The notes under the pieces: model-generated | What the model was told of the DNA's origin: nothing | Seen by the model: only the letters and a program-made list of their open reading frames with translations | The model's database searches: none | Shown here: positions 4,190 through 62,174 of the stretch, in pieces | How the letters are laid out: each line of letters starts with the position of its first letter | Position numbering within the stretch: the first letter of the stretch is position 1 | Assembly (NCBI GenBank): GCA_958510825.1 | Contig: OY294048.1 | Location: 19,423,589 to 19,487,588, forward strand | DNA: 64,000 nt | Reading direction: 5' to 3' | Source: Brachypterus glaber | Taxonomy: Eukaryota; Arthropoda; Insecta; Coleoptera; Kateretidae | Program-made: the position numbers and the translations under genes

Positions 4190-4725
4190 ATAATGTTATA
4201 TCCCGAGACCTAATGATTTAACCGGCTAAACTGCAAGTAGCTGTTTGTTTGTTTGTTTGTTTGTTTAACCTCGTACTATTCTACTTAATTAAGCATCCCC
4301 TAAGTCCAGGACTTGTGTGGGCTAGTAGTAGAGGGAACCACCGGCTTATACTGACTTTCGAACCAGTTTCTAGGGAGTTTCCGTTTCACTTATCGCCTTC
4401 GCCAAATTTCAATTATTAACTAACTGAAAAAAGCAAATCGGCGCCAGTGAGAATCGAACTCACGATAGTAGACTTGCTATGCATACGCGCTAGCCACTAC
4501 GCTATGCCTCCCACAGCTGTGTTTTTATTACTTTTGAAAAATGTTTGAAACTTAATAATTCATTATAAAAACTTCGAGACCACAGGTCGAGAGCTTTTTT
4601 ATGAATTATTAACTTAAAAACATTTGCTTAAAAGCAAAATAACCAAAAATACAGCTGCTTGTAGTTAAACTACAACTACAGCAGTTTAGATGGTTTAAAT
4701 CATTAGGTGGAGGGATATATTTCAA
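4190..4725. repeat. Foldback element carrying a SINE
   Basis: The left arm from 4199 (tatatcccgagacctaatg, then tttaaccggctaaactgc) is repeated inverted near 4655-4722. A second nested palindrome at 4550-4615 pairs cttaataattcat with atgaattattaa around a short loop. The tRNA-derived SINE at 4240-4515 lies inside the left half. No coding potential. Confidence 0.55.
4240..4515 (-). mobile_element. tRNA-derived SINE
   Basis: On the minus strand a tRNA-like head starts near 4512. It has an internal Pol III A box TAGCGTAGTGG (4494-4504) and B box GAGTTCGATTC (4451-4461). The T-arm GTGAG/CTCAC stem is perfect, while the acceptor stem pairs at about 5 of 7 positions and the anticodon arm is degenerate, so this is a SINE head and not a working tRNA. 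A tRNA-unrelated body follows (shared ACCACCGGCTTATA block near 4340, also at 35040-35055), ending in an (AAAC)n tail (GTTT repeats at 4242-4266 on the plus strand). Confidence 0.7.
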
Positions 4726-11137: not shown

Positions 11138-12486
11138 AGCTGTCAGTGATATACCACAAGATGTGGTCCGACATTTTTTTAATATAAAACTATTATTTAT
11201 TTTGAATCAAATCTCAATTTCGTGTGCTAAATATTTGTGTGCTAAATATTTTTTGTTATAAAGGAATTATAGAGAGTTACAGTGATGAGGATTTTACTTC
11301 TACACCAACAGATTTGCAGAAAATTGTACTTACGTATTTATTTATTTTAGATCGTAGAAAAAATGTTGTTTGTATTACGAGCGCAAAATGTGATATCTGC
11401 TTTCGCGTGGTTGCTGATATCGGCTAGACCCCTCGATCAGAATATTCCACGCTAAAGCCCAAAAACATTTTGCGCTCTTAATACAAAAATAACTATTTTT
11501 ACAGTTTATTTTTTTTTTTTCAAAAAATAAGGTTAAAAAGACTGCGCATTTTTGTGCATTTGGAAAAGGGTTCCTAATTTCGTTTGGAGCTGTCAGTGAT
11601 ATACCACAAGATGTGGTCCGACATTTTTTTAATATAAAACTATTATTTATTTTGAATCAAATCTCAATTTCGTGTGCTAAATATTTGTGTGCTAAATATT
11701 TTTTGTTATAAAGGAATTATAGAGAGTTACAGTGATGAGGATTTTACTTCTACACCAACAGATTTGCAGAAAATTGTACTTACGTATTTATTTATTTTAG
11801 ATCGTAGAAAAAATGTTGTTTGTATTACGAGCGCAAAATGTGATATCTGCTTTCGCGTGGTTGCTGATCTCGGCTAGACCCCTCGATCAGAAAATTCCAC
11901 GCTAAAGCCCAAAAACATTTTGCGCTCTTAATACAAAAATAACTATTTTTACAGTTTATTTTTTTTTTTTTTCAAAAAATAAGGTTAAAAAGACTGCGCA
12001 TTTTTGTGCATTTGGAAAAGGGTTCCTAATTTCGTTTGGAGCTGTCAGTGATATACCACAAGATGTGGTCCGACATTTTTTTAATATAAAACTATTATTT
12101 ATTTTGAATCAAATCTCAATTTCGTGTGCTAAATATTTGTGTGCTAAATATTTTTTGTTATAAAGGAATTATAGAGAGTTACAGTGATGAGGATTTTACT
12201 TCTACACCAACAGATTTGCAGAAAATTGTACTTACGTATTTATTTATTTTAGATCGTAGAAAAAATGTTGTTTGTATTACGAGCGCAAAATGTGATATCT
12301 GCTTTCGCGTGGTTGCTGATCTCGGCTAGACCCCTCGATCAGAAAATTCCACGCTAAAGCCCAAAAACATTTTGCGCTCTTAATACAAAAATAACTATTT
12401 TTACAGTTTATTTTTTTTTTTTTTTAAAAAATAAGGTTAAAAAGACTGCGCATTTTTGTGCATTTGGAAAAGGGTTCCTAATTTCG
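11138..12486. repeat. Three tandem copies of a ~451-bp unit
   Basis: Units start with agctgtcagtgatatacc at 11138, 11588 and 12040, spaced 450 and 452 bp. They are almost identical; differences are single bases (for example gatatcgg versus gatctcgg) and poly-T length. Each unit has an internal inverted pair: ttgtattacgagcgcaaaat (near 11370) against attttgcgctcttaatacaa (near 11470), able to form a ~20-bp stem. Each also encodes the same 67-codon open frame, which has no recognisable domain. Junctions are seamless, as in a recent tandem amplification. Confidence 0.9.
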
Positions 12487-18270: not shown

Positions 18271-18877
18271 ATGAACTTTTACAGCAGGGAGAGAAAGGCT
18301 TGCTCTTACATTATTTACAGATGTAAAAGCAAGCCAAATGACTGGTTTTGGAATAGAGAATCCTTACACTTTCCTTTAGATTAGCAATATTTTCCAACAA
18401 ATTTTTTTATTAATAAATTATTCTTCACATAAAATTAATCTTTGGCGATGTATCCTACTTCATAATCAGGATATTTTCCTGCGATCCCGCTTGAATTAAA
18501 GTGGAAGAATTTTTTAAGCATGGATAAAGTAATGAAAAATATATTGAAATTCTGTGACCACCCATGGATTCATGTATGGCCGCCCTTTACGTTTTACCGA
18601 CTTGTGGGGTGCAGAGGCGATGGAAACAAGCACTTGCTGAGGTCGTCACTATGAGACTTAAAGAAGTTCAGAGGCGTACTAACTTCTTTCGATATATAGA
18701 TGTATAAAACCAGTTCCGAGCACAGTCGGTATGAGCCCGGGTACAGGAAGGACACTGGGCCCCCCAAAAATTAGACAAAAAAAATACTTTTAAGTTAAAA
18801 TAAAGCATTTCGGCATTGCACTTTATTTGGAGCACCTAGATTTACTCATACACAGCTTTTTTTCTAAATACTGAAGA
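18271..18877. other. Intergenic stretch, nothing recognised
   Basis: A moderately GC-richer patch at 18560-18760 has no open frame or known motif that could be supported. It may be an old transposon fragment. Confidence 0.3.
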
Positions 18878-19779
18878 TATATTTTTATGTTTTGTTGTAT
18901 TTTTAATACAATCTTATTTGTTAATACATACACTTGGCGCCCATACAAAAAAGAATTGGAGCCAAAAAAATACCTTCATGAAAAAAGCTTTGTCCCTAAC
19001 GGTTTCTACCAAACTAACTTGGCGCCCCTGCAAAAAAAATTGGCACCCCAAAAAAAAAATTGGCTCCCCCTACCGCCCAAAACTTACCTTTAAGAAAAAA
19101 AGCTTTGTCCCTGACGGTTTCTACCAAACTTGGCGCCCATGCAAAAAAAGTTAGCTCCCAAAGCTAGCGAAACAGGAAGCCTTATCAGTTTTTTGCTCAA
19201 TTTTTTTTATTTTCATGTAACTTTTTGTAGTTTTATTATTAGAATATGATTTCATAGGTAAAATACATAAAAAATACCTTGTTGTAACACCGTAGCTACG
19301 GTGTTACAATGTTAGCATTAACTGTTTATATATTTTTATGTTTTGTTGTATTTTTAATACAATCTTATTTGTTAATACATACACTTGGCGCCCATACAAA
19401 AAAGAATTGGAGCCAAAAAAATACCTTCATGAAAAAAGCTTTGTCCCTAACGGTTTCTACCAAACTAACTTGGCGCCCCTGCAAAAAAAATTGGCACCCC
19501 AAAAAAAAAATTGGCTCCCCCTACCGCCCAAAACTTACCTTTAAGAAAAAAAGCTTTGTCCCTGACGGTTTCTACCAAACTTGGCGCCCATGCAAAAAAA
19601 GTTAGCTCCCAAAGCTAGCGAAACAGGAAGCCTTATCAGTTTTTTGCTCAATTTTTTTTATTTTCATGTAACTTTTTGTAGTTTTATTATTAGAATATGA
19701 TTTCATAGGTAAAATACATAAAAAATACCTTGTTGTAACACCGTAGCTACGGTGTTACAATGTTAGCATTAACTGTTTT
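18878..19779. repeat. Two tandem copies of a 451-bp unit
   Basis: Copy 1 (18878-19328) and copy 2 (19329-19779) are essentially identical. Each contains two reverse-oriented GGCGCC-family units (tttgtccctgacggtttcta, then caaacttggcgccc) and ends with a perfect 28-bp palindrome centred on GTAGCTAC (19282-19309 and 19733-19760). The 98-codon and 68-codon frames are repeat translations. Confidence 0.9.
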
Positions 19780-27872: not shown

Positions 27873-28803
27873 GTCAGTAAATGTAGAAAACGTAGATATA
27901 AGTTTGCAAAAGTGTAATTAATAGTAGTTTTTTGCATGAAACAACTGTGTAAAAGCAGCCATATGTCGTATCCTTGTGTTCTACTTTATTCGTAACGATT
28001 TCTATTTACTTGATCGGTGCTTGCGCACCTAATTTTAATAAAAAAATCTCATTATCGATTGTTCTCATTATGTTTATCACAAGAGCCGGCGCTTTTCTAA
28101 GAATTCGTCTGGGATAGAAAGAACTGTAGGTCTATCTCTGTCCTTAGATTATGCTTTTTTTGTGTTTCCGGCGCTCGGTCATTGATGTGATCTCAGTGGA
28201 ATGTGGTAGGGCTGGATACTTTGAAATTACCAATGGGACGGGGAGCGGTGGGAATGGAATGTTGGAAATCGTGAATGGTTTCTGAATTCCAACAACGTTG
28301 CCATCTTAGTACTCTTGCACCCATTATTGAGCTTGAAAGTTGGGCTACATTGTACACTGTTGTATTAAGCGGCGAGTAGAAAGGCAGTTGTACTGTTATT
28401 TGAACTGTTCTAAAATGTATACAATATTGGAATGTGCAGTACTGTAAAATGTAATGAATATTTTATAAATATTTACCTCACACCAAGGTAATTTTGGTAG
28501 TAACAAAAATTTGTTTAGATTCAATGTTATAAGAATTAATTATTCTAAGTGCCTACCTAATAAGCTTTTAATATTAAATTAAAAAACCTAAAACTAAAAT
28601 TTTTAAATTATTTGAAAATATTTAATATTTTTTATTCTTACCTAATTTTTTGATATTTTTAGATTAAATTGTGCAAATGATATACATGTTGAAAGAAAAA
28701 TATAAACAACTTTTGTTTTATAAACAATTTTAAATTATGACACTAAATTTTGTTTTATTTTATTACAGATACTCTTTAACAACCTATCGAAACACTAAAA
28801 GAA

Positions 28804-29781
28804 ATGATTAACATTAGAAACCAAGTTATAGCTGCGATAAACATTAAACAATCTGAAGAAAAAGAAGACACTGACTTACATAAAGTAGAAGGACGTTGTA
28901 AAACATACAAGGACTGGCCAAACTCAAGCATTGAACCCCTAGTATTAGCACAAGCTGGATTTTACTATACGGGTATAAATGACATTGTCCGATGTGCATA
29001 TTGTCCAATAGAAGGACACCGGTGGGAATCCCAAGATAGTCCAATGGAAGATCACATAAACTGGAATAGAGAACAGAACCGTAATTGCCCGTTTGTTGCC
29101 CATGGTGACAGTGATGATTCCAGTAATGAAACCCCATCTGTTAGTCATGATACATGTGGCAAGTACGGAGTAGAAATTTTACCCCATTCTTTGCCTGAGA
29201 ACGTAAAACATTTAGAAAAACTAGGTATTACAATTGCAACAGCACCCACACATCCAGAACACATTACATATGATAATAGATTAGCAACGTATTCCCTTTG
29301 GCCTAAATCTTTAAAGCAAAAACCGAAAGATCTAGCGGCAGCTGGTTTCTTCTATCTGGGAGTGGGTGACCAAACATTGTGCTTCCATTGTGGAGGGGGT
29401 TTAAAGGACTGGGAAGAAAGCGATGATCCATGGGAACAACATGCATTATGGTTTTCAAAATGTAATTATTTAGTACTCAAAAAGGGACAAGATTTTATTA
29501 AACAAGTACAGGGGAAGAGTAAGGACACTCCAAGTGCTAGTGCAAGTGCTTGCACTACAAATACTACTACATCTGATACCAAAGAAGACAAAAAAGATGA
29601 AGATGATGAGAAGAAGGTTGAAGAAAGCACACTCTGCAAAATTTGTTTTAAAAATGAGTTAGGTGTGGTATTTTTGCCTTGTGGACATATTGTAGCTTGT
29701 GTTGATTGTGCATCAGCTTTGAAAAATTGTGCAGTGTGCCGAAAACCTTTAGAAGCAACTGTTCGTGCGTTCCTATCATAA
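28804..29781 (+). CDS. Inhibitor of apoptosis protein, two BIR domains and RING (DIAP1-like)
   Basis: Encodes 325 residues, an intracellular caspase-binding E3 ubiquitin ligase by family. BIR1 spans about residues 28-98, with zinc ligands C64, C67, H84 and C95. BIR2 spans about 158-224 (C193, C196, H213, C220), with the conserved CGGGLKDWEESDDPWEQH groove region that in this family binds IAP-antagonist N-termini. A Ser/Thr-rich then Asp/Glu/Lys-rich linker (240-275) precedes a C3HC4 RING (C278, C281, C293, H295, C299, C302, C309, C312) that ends the protein, as in other insect IAPs. The spacing in BIR2 is canonical (CX2CX16HX6C). In BIR1 the last gap is X10, four longer than in BIR2. The protein is shorter than fly DIAP1 because of short linkers. 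The ATG lies 35 bases after a strong acceptor (tttattttattacag, ending 28768), so this is probably the first coding exon of a gene with a spliced 5' leader, and the whole coding region is one exon. It is the only confidently intact host gene in the window. By family it restrains caspases and is removed when death signals arise. The two BIR domains plus RING fit the DIAP1 type better than other IAP subtypes, but orthology needs a tree. Confidence 0.95.
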   Translation: MINIRNQVIAAINIKQSEEKEDTDLHKVEGRCKTYKDWPNSSIEPLVLAQAGFYYTGINDIVRCAYCPIEGHRWESQDSPMEDHINWNREQNRNCPFVAHGDSDDSSNETPSVSHDTCGKYGVEILPHSLPENVKHLEKLGITIATAPTHPEHITYDNRLATYSLWPKSLKQKPKDLAAAGFFYLGVGDQTLCFHCGGGLKDWEESDDPWEQHALWFSKCNYLVLKKGQDFIKQVQGKSKDTPSASASACTTNTTTSDTKEDKKDEDDEKKVEESTLCKICFKNELGVVFLPCGHIVACVDCASALKNCAVCRKPLEATVRAFLS

Positions 29782-38700: not shown

Positions 38701-40043
38701 AAAAATCTAAAAATTTTAATTGCAATGGTTCAAAAAAATAAAAAAAGCTGTATTGTTGGTTTAACACATGTTTTTTTGTGTGTAGTTGTAAATTCGAGTA
38801 AGTCCTGTAAAATTATCTTCTGATTTTTAACAGCAGACTGCCAGCTGAAACTGCTGAAAACTTCAAAACCTTTTTTGTGAGTATTTTTGAAAATATGTAC
38901 CTAATGGTGATGGAATTACTTCTAATAAACATACCAATTGGTATGCATATCTTCTGTATATATTTTTTAAATAAGTTAAAAATTGACAGTCCATAAAAAT
39001 ATAAACGTTTGTCGGTTAATAACCCACACGTCCTCCAAATAGACATAGGTTTAAAAAAAATAGCAAACTTAGGTGATCATAAATCATGTGAGCAAAGGGT
39101 CTTCACAATTCAAAACCTCGACCAAATCCTAATGAGTGTGAATTCGTAAATAGTGGTGAAAGTTCTTCTGCAGACTATATGCTAAACAACAGTAACAAAC
39201 TGCAAATTCTTTTGCACAATTCTAATAGTGTTTTTGTTGCTGATTTCGATTATGTTTAGATCAAATCTCTATCTCTTTCCGTTTTTGAGAAATACCCTGC
39301 TGAAAATTCGAAAAAATTAAAAAATGTAATTTTAGGTGGACAATAAATAAATTATTGAAGCACCTACAAAGGTTTTTTCTAGCTTGAATTCAAGTTATAT
39401 ATTTGCTCTATAAAACCGTATAGAAAAGTATCTGGATTTCATTTCCGGTGTCCAACTGAACACCAGTTTTTAAGACATCTGCAATGACGATTCAGTGTTG
39501 CTGTTTAAGACTATTTTGGGCAGTATATGTCATATTTAGCAAAATTGACAAACACATGGGCTTGACAAATATAATGAATTTGACGTTAAATTTATAAAAA
39601 CTGCTTAAAAAAGATAAATTCACCTTCTTTTAAAGATCATTGCAGAGACATCAAAGCTGTTCATTAAATGAACTTTTAAAATGATTTTCACATTTTTCGT
39701 AATTATTTTATAGAGAATTGATGTAACTTCAATTTAAACTAGAAAAACCTTTTGTAGCTGCAATAATACATTAAATATAAGCCTCCAAAAATGAGAAATT
39801 ATAGTTTTTATAAAATTTTGGAACGGTTTCTTAAAAATGGAAATAGATAGAGATTTGATTTAAACAAAATCAAAATCAGCTACAAAAACACTATTAAAAT
39901 TGTGCAAAAGAATTTGCACTATATAACTGTGGTTTATCATACAGTCTGCGGAAGAACTTTTACCACTAAGAACTGGCGCTCATTAGGATTTCGTTCATAG
40001 AGGTTTTGAATTGAACAGACCTTTTGCTCACATGATTTAACAT

Positions 40044-40506
40044 ATTATTCCATCAATCTATTTTCTAATCATCGTACAGAGTGATATTGGTAGACTGACA
40101 GTTTCGGGCTGCTGGCCCTCTTCAGTACCAAGAGTCAACTCTGCATGCTGATTAAGAAAACGTTTTTAGACTTTACTCGCAAAAGGAATATAGCCATTAG
40201 ATTGATGTAGACTTGTGCGCCATCTATTTCTAGATGTAGACAACTACTCATACCTCTCCTAATCTGGAGACTTTGAATGGTAGCAAGTTGAAGACTTGTG
40301 TGTCTCAAGCACATAGTACCACTAACGGGTGGTTAGACGTAAAATTAGTAAGGACAGAAATTTTTAATTTTAAACAAAATTATAAAAATATTAATTTATT
40401 ATTCCATCAATCTATTTTCTAATCATCGTACAGAGTGAAAATAGATTGATGGAATAATAAATTAATATTTTTATAATTTTGTTTAAAATTAAAAATTTCT
40501 GTCCTT
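40044..40506 (-). mobile_element. Penelope-like terminal repeat insertion with 12-bp target duplication
   Basis: 463 bp flanked by direct atgatttaacat (40032-40043 and 40507-40518). It begins with 41 bp (attattccatcaatctattt onward) that recur 354 bp later at 40398-40438, so one full tandem terminal-repeat unit plus the start of a second is present. The second is followed by an inverted copy: 40350-40419 and 40437-40506 are perfect 70-bp arms around a 17-bp loop. Tandem plus inverted terminal repeats with an embedded hammerhead ribozyme are the hallmark of Penelope-like retroelements. No reverse transcriptase is present, so this is a terminal fragment. Confidence 0.75.
40077..40143 (-). ncRNA. 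Type I hammerhead ribozyme
   Basis: A self-cleaving RNA. Read on the minus strand from 40143, the outer stem I is CAGAG paired with CUCUG, and an internal loop (UUGACUC opposite UAUCA) follows. The inner stem I is UUGGUA paired with UACCAA. The core CUGAAGA is next, then stem II GGGC/GCCC with loop CAGCA, then GAA, and stem III ACU/AGU with loop GUC. The cleavage-site triplet AGUC puts C17 at 40093, so cleavage falls between 40093 and 40092. Every invariant core nucleotide (CUGANGA, GAA, UH at the cut) is present and all three stems pair perfectly. The internal loop in stem I opposite loop II fits the tertiary contact of natural type I hammerheads. Short stem III is usual in ribozymes of Penelope-like elements, where it may process tandem transcripts. 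Activity is inferred from structure. Confidence 0.88.
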
Positions 40507-40646
40507 ATGATTTAACATCACCTAAGTTTGCTATTTTTTTAAACCTATTTCCATTTGGGGGGTCGTGTGAACCGGATATAGATAACTTAACCGACAAACG
40601 TGCAGTAACTATATGTTTTTATAGACTATCAATCTTTAACTTATTC

Positions 40647-41379: not shown

Positions 41380-44300
41380 TTGGAATTAGTTTCAAAGGGG
41401 GAAGTCACCCTTGAATATTGTTCGATGGGGTTGAAATTTTATGATGGGATGCAGAAAGGTCCCTTAAGTCAGCATAAAAAATTTTATACCGATCGGATAA
41501 TTTCAAGTACTCGTTTTTTACTATTCCTCAGAAAAAATCGTTTCGGAGGCGTAAACCAACCCTAAATATTTTCCAATGGGGTTGAAATTTTAGGATGGGG
41601 TGCAGGAAAGTCCTTTAGGTCAGCATAAAAAATTTCAGCTCGATTGGAAAATTTAAAGTACTCGTTTTGTTTCATTCCGCAGATAAAAATCGTTTCGCAG
41701 GCGTAAACCAACCCTAAATATTTTCTGATCGGGTTATAATTTTAGGATGGGGTGCAAGAAGGTGCCTAAAGTCAGCGTACAAAATTTTAGACTGATCGGA
41801 TAATTAAAAGTACTCTTTTTTTACCCTTCCGCAGGAAAAAATCATTTCACAGGCGTAAATCAACTTAAAATATTTTCCGATCGGGTTATAATTTTAGAAT
41901 GGGGTGCAGGGTGGTACCTAAAGTCAGCATACAATATTTCAGCCCGATCTGATAATTTAAAGTACTCGTTTTTTTACCATTCCGCAGAAAAAAATCGTTT
42001 CGTAGGCGTAAACCAACCCTAAATATTTTCATATGGGGTTGAAATTTTAGAATGGGGTGCAGGGAGATCCCTAAAGTCACCACAAAAAATTTCAGCCCAA
42101 TCGAATAATTTAAAGTTCTCTTTTTTTACCGTTCCGCTGAAAAAAAAAATGGTTCAAAGGGGGAAGCCACCGTTAAATATTGTCCGATGGGGTTAAAATT
42201 TTAGGATGGGGTGCAGGAAGGTCTGTAAAGTCAGCATACAAAATTTCAGCCCTATCGGATAATTTAAAGTACTCGTTTTTTACCATTCCGCAGAAAAAAT
42301 CGTTTCGGAGGCGTAAACCAACCCTAAATATTTTCCGATGGGGTTAAAATTTTAAAATGGGGTGCAGGGAGGTCCCTAAAGTCGCCGTAAAAAATTTCAG
42401 CCCGATCGGATAATTTAAAGTTCTCGTTTTTTACCATTCCGCAGAAAAAAATCGTTTCGCAGGTGTAAACCAACCCTAAATATTTTCCGATGGGGTTGAA
42501 ATTTTAGGATGGGGTGCAGGGAGGTCCCTAAAGTCACCACAAAAATTTTCAGCCCAATCGGATAATTAAAAGTTCTATTTTTTACCGTTCCGCTGAAAAA
42601 AAATGTTTCAAAGGGGGAAGCCAGCCTTAAATATTGTTCGATGGGGTTCAAATTTTAGGATGGGGTGCAGGAAGGTCTCTTGAGTCAGCATACAAAATTT
42701 CAGTATGATCGGATAATTTAAAGTACTCGTTTTTTACCATTCCGCAGAAAACATCGTTTCGGAGGCGTAAACCAACCCTAAATATTTTCCGATCGGGTTA
42801 TAATTTTAGAATGGGGTGCAGGGGGGTACTTGAAGTTAGCATAAAAAAATTCAGCCCGATCGGATAATTTAAAGTACTCGTTTTTTACCATTCCGCAGAA
42901 AAAAATCGTTTTGCAGGCGTAAACCAACCCTAAATATTTTCAGATGGGGTTGAAATTTTAGAATGGGTTGCAGGAAGATCCCTAAAGTCACCACAAAAAA
43001 TTTCAGGCCAATCGGATAATTTAAAGTTCTCTGTTTTTACCGTTCCGCTGAAAAAAAATGTTTCAAAGGGGAAGCCACCCTTAAATATTTTCCGATGGGG
43101 TTTAAATTTTAGGATGGGGTGCAGGAAGGTCTCTTAAGTCAGCATAGAAAATTTCAGTCCGATCGGATAATTTAAAGTACTCGTTTTTTACCATTCCGCA
43201 GAAAACATCGTTTCGGAGGCGTAAACCAACCCTACATATTTTCCGATCGGGTTATAATTTTAGAATGGGGTGCAGGGTGGTACCTAAAGTCAGCATAAAA
43301 AATTTCAGCCCGATCGGATAATTTAAAGTACTCGTTTTTTACCATTCCGCAGAAAAAAATCGTTTTGCAGCAGTAAACCAACCCTTAATATTTTCAGATG
43401 GGGTTGAAATTTTAGAATGGGGTGCAGGAAGATTCCTAAAGTCACGACAAACAATTTCAGGCCAATCGGATAATTTTAAGTTCTCTTTTTTAACCGTTCC
43501 GCTGAAAAAAAAATGTTTCAAAGGGGAAGCCACCGTTAAAATTTTCCGATGGGGTTAAAATTTTAGGATGGGATGCAGAAAGGTCTGTAAAGTCAGCATA
43601 CAAAATTTCAGCCCGATCGGATAATTTAAAGTACTCGTTTTTTACCATTCCGCAGAAAAAATCGTTTCGGAGGCGTAAACCAACCCTAAATATTTTCTGA
43701 TGGGGTTGAAATTTTAGAATGGGGTGCAGGGTGGTACCTAAAGTCAGCATAAAAAATTTCAGCCCGATCGGATAATTTAAAGTACTCGTTTTTTACCATT
43801 CCGCAGAAAAAAATCGTTTTGCAGCAGTAAACCAACCCTTAATATTTTCAGATGGGGTTGAAATTTTAGAATGGGGTGCAGGAAGATTCCTAAAGTCACG
43901 ACAAACAATTTCAGGCCAATCGGATAATTTTAAGTTCTCTTTTTTAACCGTTCCGCTGAAAAAAAAATGTTTCAAAGGGGAAGCCACCGTTAAAATTTTC
44001 CGATGGGGTTAAAATTTTAGGATGGGATGCAGGAAGGTCTGTAAAGTCAGCATACAAAATTTCAGCCCGATCGGATAATTTAAAGTACTCGTTTTTTACC
44101 ATTCCGCAGAAAAAATCGTTTCGGAGGCGTAAACCAACCCTAAATATTTTCTGATGGGGTTGAAATTTTAGAATGGGGTGCAGGGAGGTCCCTAAAGTCG
44201 CCCTAAAAAATTTCAGCCCGATCGGATAATTTAAAGTTCTCGTTTTTTACCATTCCGCAGAAAAAAATCGTTTCGCAGGCGTAAACCAACCTTAAATATT

Positions 44301-45905
44301 TTCCGATGGGGTTGAAATTTTAGGATAGGGTGCAGGGAGGTCCCTAAAGTCACCACAAAAATTTTCAGCCCAATCGGATAATTGAAAGTTCTATTTTTTA
44401 CCGTTCCGCTGAAAAAAAAATGTTTCAAAGGGGGAAGCCACCCTTAAATATTGTCCGATGGGGTTCAAATTTTAGGAAGGTCTCTTAAGTCAGCATACAA
44501 AATTTCAGTCCGATCTGATAATTTAAAGTACTCGTTTTTTACCATTCCGCAGAAAACATCGTTTCGGAGGCGTAAACCAACCCTAAATATTTTCCGATCG
44601 GGTTATGATTTTAGAATGGGGTGCAGGGTGGTACCTAAAGTCAGCATAAATAATTTCAGCCCGATCAGATAATTTAAAGTACTCGTTTTTTACCATTCCG
44701 CAGAAAAAAATCGTTTTGCAGGCGTAAACCAACCCTAAATATTTTCAGATGGGGTTGAAATTTTAGGATAGGGTGCAGGGAGGTCCCTAAAGTCACCACA
44801 AAAATTTTCAGCCCAATCGGATAATTGAAAGTTCTATTTTTTACCGTTCCGCTGAAAACAAATGTTTCAAAGGGGGAAGCCACCCTTAAATATTGTCCGA
44901 TGGGGTTCAAATTTTAGGATGGGGTGCAGGAAGGTCTCTTAAGTCAGCATACAAAATTTCAGTCCGATCGGATAATTTAAAGTACTCGTTTTTTACCATT
45001 CCGCAGAAAACATCGTTTCGGAGGCGTAAACCAACCCTAAATATTTTCCGATCGGGTTATAATTTTAGAATGGGGTGCAGGGGGGTACTTGAAGTTAGCA
45101 TAAAAAAATTGAGCCCGATCGGATAATTTAAAGTACTCGTTTTTTACCATTCCGCAGAAAAAAATCGTTTTGCAGGCGTAAACCAACCCTAAATATTTTC
45201 AGATGGGGTTGAAATTTTAGAATGGGTTGCAGGAAGATCCCTAAAGTCACCACAAACAATTTCAGGCCAATCGGATAATTTAAAGTTCTCTGTTTTTACC
45301 GTTCCGCTGAAAAAAAATGTTTCAAAGGGGAAGCCACCCTTAAATATTTTCCGATGGGGTTTAAATTTTAGGATGGGGTGCAGGAAGGTCTCTTAAGTCA
45401 GCATAGAAAATTTAAAGTACTCGTTTTTTACCATTCCACAGAAAACATCGTTTCGGAGGCGTAAACCAACCCTAAATATTTTCCGATCGGGTTATAATTT
45501 TAGAATGGGGTGCAGGGTGGTACCTAAAGTCAGCATAAAAAATTTCAGCCCGATCGGATAATTTAAAGTACTCGTTTTTTACCATTCCGCAGAAAAAATC
45601 GTTTCAGAGGCGTAAACCAACCCTAAATATTTTCGATGGGGTTGAAATTTTAGAATGGGGTGCAGGGAGGTCCTTAAAGTCGCTGTAAAAAATTTCAGCC
45701 CGATCGGATAATTTAAAGTACTCTTTTTTTACCGTTCCGCTGAAAAAAAATTGTTTTAAAGGGGAAGCCACCCTTAAATATTGTTTGATGGGGTTGAAAT
45801 TTCATGATGGGGTGCAGAAAGGTCCCTTAAGTCAGCGTACAAAATTTCAGCCCGATCGGATAATTTAAAGTACTCTTTTTTTACCGTTCCGCAGGAAAAG
45901 ATCGT
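41380..45905. repeat. Satellite array, ~152-bp monomer with trimeric higher-order unit
   Basis: About 30 monomers. Each reads ctaaatattttccgatgggg, ttgaaattttaggatggggt, gcaggaaggtccctaaagtc, agcataaaaaatttcagccc, gatcggataatttaaagtac. Two types differ at the junction. Type A ends in cgcagaaaaaaatcgtttcg and aggcgtaaaccaac. Type B ends in cgctgaaaaaaaatgtttca and aaggggaagccaccc. Type B starts fall near 41393, 42155, 42609, 43064, 43519, 43973, 44426, 44868, 45323 and 45757. The pattern is one five-monomer block, then eight B-A-A trimers of ~454 bp; two of these are shortened by internal deletions of ~12 and ~20 bp. Minus-strand frames of 64-86 codons are translations of the satellite. Confidence 0.92.
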
Positions 45906-46299
45906 TATTTTCCACTGTGAATCCCACGAGAGTCCGTTAACGGAACTTGATAGACAGTTTTTTTCTTACAATAAAAACTCTTTGAAATATAGAAAATATT
46001 TAAAGTTATTTATTGAATTTAGGTATGTTACGTTAACTTACCTTGAGCTTTTAAAGCAAGCTCTAATATCTTCTTAGACCTATTCATTTCTTCTTTAACA
46101 AGCACATGACCACAAAAGATTTAGCGCCAATTAATACTACAGTGCTGAACAATTTAAGTTGAAGTAGTCAACAACGTTGCCAAATCTTAGGGACTCATAT
46201 CATATGACAACTACATAAAAATACATGCAACATACAGTTCTACTGTGTCGCCATCTAGTTCAACTTCCGTGAACACAGGCGCGTATATTTTGATGGGTA
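45906..46299. other. Intergenic stretch, nothing recognised
   Basis: No gene or repeat structure seen between the satellite and the flank module. Confidence 0.4.
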
Positions 46300-60374: not shown

Positions 60375-60490
60375 GTAAGTAACAGCATGTTATTTACGGA
60401 AATACCGTGCAATTATAAAGTGCCGAACACTTTTTAATGCAAAACTGGCATTAGCGATGAGTAAAATGCAAGTAAGCTGTGTGCGTTTTA

Positions 60491-60843
60491 CTGGCCACCG
60501 AGCTGTTGTATCATATGGGCTTGTCGCGCACAACAACAGAGGCGTGGCTTCAAACGAAGAGTATTTTCTTTTCAAACTGTTCGGCACTTGTCTTTATTAC
60601 GGCAGATTAATTACAATAAAGTATTACAATAAATTAAGGCGAAGGGCGAAATATAGGTGGATTCATTACTGGCCACCGAGCTGTTGTATCATATGGGCTT
60701 GTCACGCACAATAACAGAGGCGTGGCTTCAAACGAAGAGTATTTTCTTTTCAAACTGTTCGGTACTTGTCTTTATTACGGCAGATTAATTACAATAAAGT
60801 ATTACAACAAATTAAGGCGAAGGGCGAAATATAGGTGGATTCA
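60491..60843. repeat. Two tandem copies of a ~178-bp unit
   Basis: ggccaccgagctgttgtatc starts at 60493 and 60671. The units include gaggcgtggcttcaaacgaa and aaggcgaagggcgaaatata and are nearly identical. Frames across them are not convincing as genes. Confidence 0.85.
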
Positions 60844-61479: not shown

Positions 61480-62174
61480 TTGGTAGAAAAAAGACAGAAA
61501 GACATAATAAAGAATGGTTTGATAAGGAATGCAAACAATTAATCCAACAAAAAGTTAACACAATATTAAAATGGCTAAAGACTAAAAACGAAAATGACAG
61601 AAATTAATACGAAAGAATAAGAAAAATAAGCTTACTAAAAGAAAAAAGATAGAATGGCTAGAAAACAAATTAAAAAAATTGAAATGGGAAGCACAAATAA
61701 AAACACAACAAGCTTCTATCAAAAAATTAATAAACAAAACAAAAGATATAAAGGAAATATAAGTGAAATAAGAGACAAAGAGGGAAAAATAATAGATGAT
61801 GACGAAGAATATAAGAAAAGATGGAAAGAATACTTTGAAGAGATATTAAATGATATACAAACAAAAGAAATTGAAAACAGTGACGAGCAACAACACGAAA
61901 ACGAAGTGCCGACAGAGGAAGAAATTAAAGAAATAATAAGTAAATGTAGAAATGGAAAAGCACCCGGCGAAGACGGCATAAATATGGAAATGATAAAAAA
62001 CGGCGGAGATAATTTACTATGTATATATAAGTTAATAAAGAAGTTTGGAAAAAAGAACAAATGCCAAAAGAATGGGAAATGAGACAAATCATAACTATAC
62101 ATAAAAAAGGTGACCAACAGCAGTGCAAAAATTATCGAGGAATAACACTACTTAATGCTGCATATAAAATCCTG
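61480..62174 (+). pseudogene. Non-LTR retrotransposon fragment: linker and start of reverse transcriptase
   Basis: From 61503 one frame reads HNKEWFDKECKQLIQQK, the usual segment between endonuclease and RT, until a stop near 61605. From 61654 to about 62040 the frame reads a typical RT N-terminal region: FYQKINKQNK, YKKRWKEYFEEILND, then NGKAPGEDGINMEMIKNGG. A frameshift near 62040 moves the rest ([38 protein letters not shown]) to another frame, ending at a stop at 62175. The catalytic YADD part is absent. The fragment is truncated at both ends and non-functional. The clade is not resolved. Confidence 0.85.

Follow-up and report, generated by a model that had tools for sequence, protein, structure and literature searches.

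Results

A retrozyme insertion in the window

The window, by which we mean the whole 64,000-nt stretch of Brachypterus glaber DNA analysed here, carries on its minus strand a short insertion with a hammerhead ribozyme and, 10.3 kb from the ribozyme, an IAP gene with BIR repeats and a RING domain (Table 1). A first reading of the letters, made without database searches (hereafter the sequence-only reading), had placed this gene about 10 kb away, and the distance was confirmed; no sign of a link between the IAP gene and the hammerhead was found. Among the best 120 of 528 relatives of the IAP protein, the named ones near the top of the list were mostly from beetles, with 53-58% identity, and the top-scoring one was from a stick insect, with 45% identity. 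The window also holds a tRNA-Ala (AGC) gene at 4439-4511, called by ARAGORN and matched by the Rfam tRNA model; near-perfect short tandem arrays at 11138-12486 (452 bp), 18877-19778 (451 bp) and 60488-60843 (178 bp); and, 0.9 kb from the insertion, a satellite array at 41414-45906 with a unit of about 151 bp and a 454-bp three-fold higher-order period.

Table 1. Features of the window, with positions counted from its first letter
Feature	Position	Strand	Basis
IAP gene, BIR repeats and RING domain	28780-29781		
Empty site: second arm of inverted duplication, target once, no insertion	39005..39168	plus	77% identity
Right target-site duplication, ATGTTAAATCAT (minus-strand letters)	40032..40043	minus	flank sequence
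Retrozyme insertion, 463 nt	40044..40506	minus	12-bp duplication bounds, empty site, genome-wide matches
Forward part (F), 394 nt: unit 10-354, then 1-49 of next unit; ends at site A	40044..40437	minus	direct repeat
Type I hammerhead ribozyme	40077..40143	minus	sequence, pair check, structure scan unique in window
Zone B, unit positions 92-103	40344..40355	minus	copy ends over 55 loci
Zone A, unit positions 50-60	40387..40397	minus	copy ends over 55 loci
Inverted 5' head (R), 69 nt: reversed unit positions about 97 to 29; outer end = site B	40438..40506	plus	inverted repeat
Left target-site duplication, ATGTTAAATCAT (minus-strand letters)	40507..40518	minus	flank sequence

The empty site matches the joined flanks of the insertion at 77% identity over 181 columns; since the target is duplicated on either side and stands once at the empty site, 40506-40044 is an insertion. 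The large inverted duplication that surrounds it spans 39005-39330 and about 39780-40620, and its arms are 88% complementary over the best ungapped 142 nt. A 48-nt direct repeat spaced 354 nt within the window gives a unit length of 354 nt, too short for a reverse transcriptase (RT) plus an endonuclease, and we number the unit from 40092, the first base after the predicted ribozyme cut. The copy is itself hairpin-like, with an inverted repeat at 40349-40419 and 40437-40507 that is 71 nt long, 100% identical and separated by 17 nt. In the 463-nt insertion there is no open reading frame of at least 110 aa, which says little for a unit of this length, and none joining RT with GIY-YIG. Only one hammerhead lies at this locus; its RNA could therefore be cut once and could not release a unit-length molecule.

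The hammerhead ribozyme

On the minus strand, from 40143 to 40077, the ribozyme reads CAGAGT-TGACTC-TTGGTA-CTGAAGA-GGGC-CAGCA-GCCC-GAA-ACT-GTC-AGT-C-TACCAA-TATC-ACTCTG. It has the type I elements CUGANGA, GAAA and NUH and three stems, with stem I open: stem I has two 6-bp segments around a 6/4 internal loop, stem II has 4 bp and the loop CAGCA, and stem III has 3 bp closed by a 3-nt loop. At N7, A replaces the usual U, a change that is tolerated at this position. The cleavage triplet is GUC, and cleavage is predicted between 40093 and 40092, in agreement with the sequence-only reading. All 19 of the 19 base pairs are standard. A home-made scan for type I hammerheads, which demands the core and all three stems, picked out 40143-40077 and no other place when run over both strands of the window; 40 simulated 64-kb single strands with the window's base-to-base frequencies gave no match. 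The sequence, the pairing and the scan thus uphold the earlier claim of a complete minus-strand type I hammerhead with an intact core. The accompanying claim of perfect stems stands as regards the pairs of stems I, II and III, but stem III is only 3 bp long with a loop of 3 nt.

The covariance-model search that the sequence-only reading had proposed as a check came out against it, as Rfam RF00163 (Hammerhead_1) did not report this hammerhead at its gathering score over the whole window, nor at E up to 10 in the 2.5 kb searched. The miss is probably due to the shortness of stem III (3 bp) and of its loop (3 nt). An Rfam scan of the genome (73 of 69,482 candidates scored) likewise missed the family described below and gave one match, to another hammerhead. 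The latter, at L024:1500-1548 (G000:C10:30938340), scores above the Rfam cut-off and is a canonical type I hammerhead distinct from that of the window. Covariation was seen in none of the 19 pairs (0 changed on both sides) among 18 distinct sequences, because the copies are too alike.

Predicted folding energies were -15.6 kcal/mol for the hammerhead fold versus -24.6 kcal/mol for the best fold. Over two units, a double-hammerhead fold with a stem III of 4 bp, U.U and 4 bp was predicted at -41.5 kcal/mol versus -49.3 kcal/mol for the best dimer fold, so that the hammerhead folds are 8-9 kcal/mol weaker than the competing predictions. In this folding model, the double-hammerhead dimer is possible and not favoured.

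BLAST of phage records gave no match. Hammerhead-like cores with stem II GGGC/GCCC were observed in 23 viral contigs (L001-L023), with eight core-pattern matches in L023 and four each in L001, L011, L012 and L013.

A retrozyme family dispersed through the genome

A search of the genome (648 Mb, 842 contigs) with the 33-nt hammerhead core returned 5,348 places at up to 2 mismatches, and 0 with the reversed pattern. Across 30 loci examined, 354-nt units stand head to tail in arrays with up to six hammerheads; in 6 arrays, the nearest relative of a unit lay in its own array for 8 of 15 units, a share that speaks neither for nor against a circular template. The family thus has the features of retrozymes, namely a 354-nt unit with a type I hammerhead that falls within 170-400 nt and lacks a protein gene, copies both tandem and dispersed, and target duplications of more than 4 bp. 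We assign the insertion to a new metazoan non-LTR retrozyme family with a 354-nt unit, likened to published retrozymes by description. Tandem arrays are also what would be seen of an ordinary satellite that carried a hammerhead by chance and had spread through duplication and unequal exchange, and hammerhead-bearing satellites are known (PMC2808323, in the part available). Against this reading stand dispersed short copies with target duplications of their own, an empty site and ends at two fixed places, and we give it next to no credence.

From the same 30 loci we compared 52 distinct full-length hammerheads, after dropping 15 rows without motif coverage. Thirteen of the 52 were identical to the window copy and the core was kept in 40, which makes present or recent activity, claimed for this copy by the sequence-only reading, plausible for the family; the less stable hammerhead fold and the lone hammerhead of the window locus stand on the other side.

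Most copy ends lie at two sites, paired A with B

Copy ends were read at 55 loci, made up of the 30 loci less 3 overlapping ones, a further 13 taken from the list that had supplied these, and the 15 new places that came first in a second search. Most lie at two sites, A at about 50-60 nt and B at about 92-104 nt after the cut. For counting, we fixed zone A at unit positions 46-68 and zone B at 88-106, together 12% of the unit and drawn on the first 40 loci. Forward ends fell in these zones in 49 of 54 readable cases (A 29, B 20). An inverted head stood at the start of the copy in 37 of the 55 loci, and the outer ends of these heads were distributed as A 14, B 14 and elsewhere 9.

Both ends lay in the zones at 25 loci, and every one of these copies had one A end and one B end (25/25; 14 A/B and 11 B/A), for which the chance given the margins is 2e-7. 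The pairing was seen in 19 of 19 loci of the first set and 6 of 6 of the second. A third sample, with the prediction fixed beforehand, comprised 5 of the 11 clusters of opposite hammerheads found among 100 places; all 4 in-zone pairs were A/B (L112-L115), and the fifth locus, L111 (59, 71), had one end outside the zones. A further A/B copy, 112 nt long and without hammerhead, was a chance find besides this sample at L092:1745-1856, where inverted positions 54-21 are followed by forward positions 31-98. Heads with an end outside the zones numbered 12 of 37 in the 55 loci, among them L104, whose stretch stops short; with the third sample included, an end was outside the zones or unread at 13 of the 42 retrozyme loci with a head. 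Were the zones widened until they met, L111 and L035 (27, 70) would count as same-zone.

Among these 100 places, which are exact matches in the first 16.4 Mb of contig C1, opposite hammerheads within 800 bp of each other were arranged minus-then-plus, with tails outward, 11 times and plus-then-minus 0 times. The flanks shared at least 9 nt at 20 of the 53 loci where they could be read, versus 1% for flanks of different loci, and at least 8 nt at 26 of 53, versus 4% for mismatched flanks; fewer were shared at the remaining 27 of 53. Shared stretches of at least 8 nt were 83% A+T, versus 68% in DNA 100-400 nt upstream, although chance matches also lean towards A+T.

Target duplications and 5' inversions are also made by LINEs, and the window contains a LINE-like reverse transcriptase fragment at 61639-62082 (named from its residues; no Pfam match), both of which would suit movement of the retrozyme by LINE-type machinery through twin priming. 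That process starts the inverted piece anywhere upstream and not at the 3'-end sites, which predicts scattered outer ends of the heads, whereas here these ends fall at the same two sites as the forward ends. Moreover, the same site was never used twice in one copy among the 25 in-zone loci, and no consistent poly(A) or simple-repeat tail was present at 40 right ends (that of L050 abuts a TA repeat). On the evidence of the retrozyme copies, we therefore regard LINE-type movement as very improbable.

Another account of the heads is self-priming, in which the growing strand folds back to copy itself, as has been proposed for Penelope-like elements (PLEs) in the available part of PMC3846280. The perfect 71-nt inverted repeat of the window copy, with its 17 nt between arms, has the form that this would leave, and in 10 of 37 heads no more than 30 unit positions separate the inner junctions of head and body. 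However, 6.4 of 37 would do so by chance and 27 of 37 lie farther apart; inner junctions so scattered make fold-back copying no general account of the heads. Nor would self-priming make heads terminate, on their outer side, at the second priming site, and we hold it to be very improbable.

Penelope-like elements of the same genome

A search of the genome for GIY-YIG gave at least 31 matches, with 150 of 419 candidates scored. We label the PLE families P1, P2, P3 and P4; P4 is represented at L088 by a 716-residue frame with RVT_1 and GIY-YIG. The hammerheads of P1-P3 are minimal, without a stem III hairpin, and read GAAACGTT, and that of P4 reads GAAACTAGTC. The P4 copies compared were 92-99% alike. 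In the P4 hammerhead of L088 (8100-8960) we noted UUGAAGA where CUGAAGA is expected, with U at core C3.

The ends of P1 copies were bimodal, at query positions 594-611 and 622-644 (40 of 1,307 candidates scored), which by subtraction places them 65-82 and 93-115 nt after the cut. Sixteen tail-outward pairs of P1 were found, and both ends were readable in 15; the two ends were discordant in 14 of these 15 and B/B in one, a discordance with a permutation chance of 0.002. P4 copies ended 51-62 or 88 nt after the hammerhead cut, and their inverted pairs were discordant in both readable loci (L087 and L091).

Comparison of the retrozyme unit with 28 PLE loci revealed no likeness beyond AT-rich stretches and retrozyme insertions in those loci, namely the L092 copy and a fragment in L071; sequence thus ties no particular PLE family to the retrozyme. 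The fragment (L071:325-400), in a locus with a GIY-YIG match, is decayed and runs from the last bases of the hammerhead to about zone A. With its 3-bp stem III, the retrozyme hammerhead falls outside the minimal PLE type, and its copies bear the insertion marks of PLEs, with an inverted head, a tail at one end and a short duplication.

The sequence-only reading had linked the ribozyme to the terminal repeats of Penelope elements. A mobile element with a Penelope connection was indeed found, but the host of the ribozyme is the 354-nt retrozyme unit and not a Penelope terminal repeat. That the insertion is a solo terminal repeat or another fragment of a Penelope element would account for the PLE insertion marks and accords with the hammerheads in PLEs of this genome. 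Yet the units follow one another head to tail and are 354 nt long, too short for a frame with RT and endonuclease, and no autonomous PLE carried it in its repeats among the 28 PLE loci (out of at least 31 GIY-YIG matches), which makes a Penelope fragment highly improbable.

Discussion

Comparison with known systems

As far as the available text of PMC7229834 (Cervera and de la Pena 2020) extends, metazoan non-LTR retrozymes resemble the present family in that a type I hammerhead sits in a unit of 170-400 nt, copies are arranged in tandem, target duplications exceed 4 bp and the genome also has PLEs. The same portion of that paper gives no description, for retrozymes, of inverted heads or of two end sites that pair, and the term 'tail' is absent. 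The plant LTR retrozymes (PMC4918200, in part) are likewise non-autonomous and hammerhead-bearing, and they form circles, which is presumed here; they differ in their type III hammerheads, LTRs and 4-bp duplications, and are likely moved by Gypsy machinery according to the part of PMC7229834 at hand. GIY-YIG PLEs, in the accessible parts of PMC11167929 and PMC3846280, share with the retrozyme head-to-head inverted copies, an optional tail at one end and short duplications. In PLEs and retrozyme alike, the hammerhead is followed within about 50-115 nt by the copy-end sites, whereas the retrozyme has no RT or endonuclease gene, has a 3-bp stem III and is much shorter.

The biochemistry of a PLE enzyme is set out in PMC11167929, of which we draw on a part. 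Both strands are cut and extended by the purified Anolis protein, which favours AT-rich DNA and begins synthesis at two neighbouring sites inside the RNA. Within the frame, the cut is at 26 nt and a main start at 111-118 nt, and subtraction puts 85-92 nt between them; the start sites show no difference between strands. Equal start sites on both strands fit a scheme in which either strand may use either site, a fit that does not by itself establish pairing. A PLE hammerhead that needs protein is also reported there. The consulted part of PMC3846280 describes PLE copies with an inverted pLTR, in which one of the inverted pLTRs may bear a 'tail', and the one-sided PLE tail is thus already known as a description. 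Neither such a mark in retrozymes nor its reading as one start site per DNA strand was found in the open-licence literature searched, and earlier statements of either may exist elsewhere.

A model for retrozyme insertion

The model starts from what we observed, namely the 354-nt unit, its tandem copies, target duplications, the empty site, two end sites, their A/B pairing and the same pattern in PLEs. These insertion marks support PLE machinery as the mover of the retrozyme family, and we consider it highly probable that retrozyme RNA is copied by this machinery from both ends of a staggered cut, at sites A and B. By analogy with published animal retrozymes, transcripts of tandem units would cut themselves and be closed into circles. 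A PLE protein, which we infer to be the actor, would then take retrozyme RNA, probably circular, as its template and make staggered cuts in the two strands of an AT-rich target, offset by about 9-15 bp and most often by 12. Reverse transcription would be primed at A by one of the resulting DNA ends and at B by the other, both sites lying downstream of the hammerhead, so that one strand is primed per site. Joined head to head, two cDNAs of unequal length, sometimes of several laps, may then yield a copy in which an inverted head precedes the forward body, one end lies at A and the other at B, and a short stretch of the target is duplicated.

We lean, with some reserve, towards a wider reading in which each insertion is a paired event carried out by a pair of PLE enzymes with one DNA end per site. 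PLEs and retrozymes would then share one two-ended mechanism, the optional 'tail' would mark the second start site, and retrozymes would be parasites of PLEs that keep only the hammerhead and a priming module of about 100 nt.

Implications

PLEs were named 'a strong candidate' for moving retrozymes on the grounds of shared hammerheads, tandem copies and co-existence (PMC7229834, in the part available), and a December 2024 review, as far as its available text goes, gives LINEs or PLEs as the movers (PMC11722881). The mover of animal retrozymes has so far been only suspected; the marks of the present family agree with those of PLEs in this genome and with what a PLE enzyme does in vitro, as given in the part of PMC11167929 used here. 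The rule that each insertion has an A end and a B end is something that models of PLE integration must explain, and it can be tested with purified protein.
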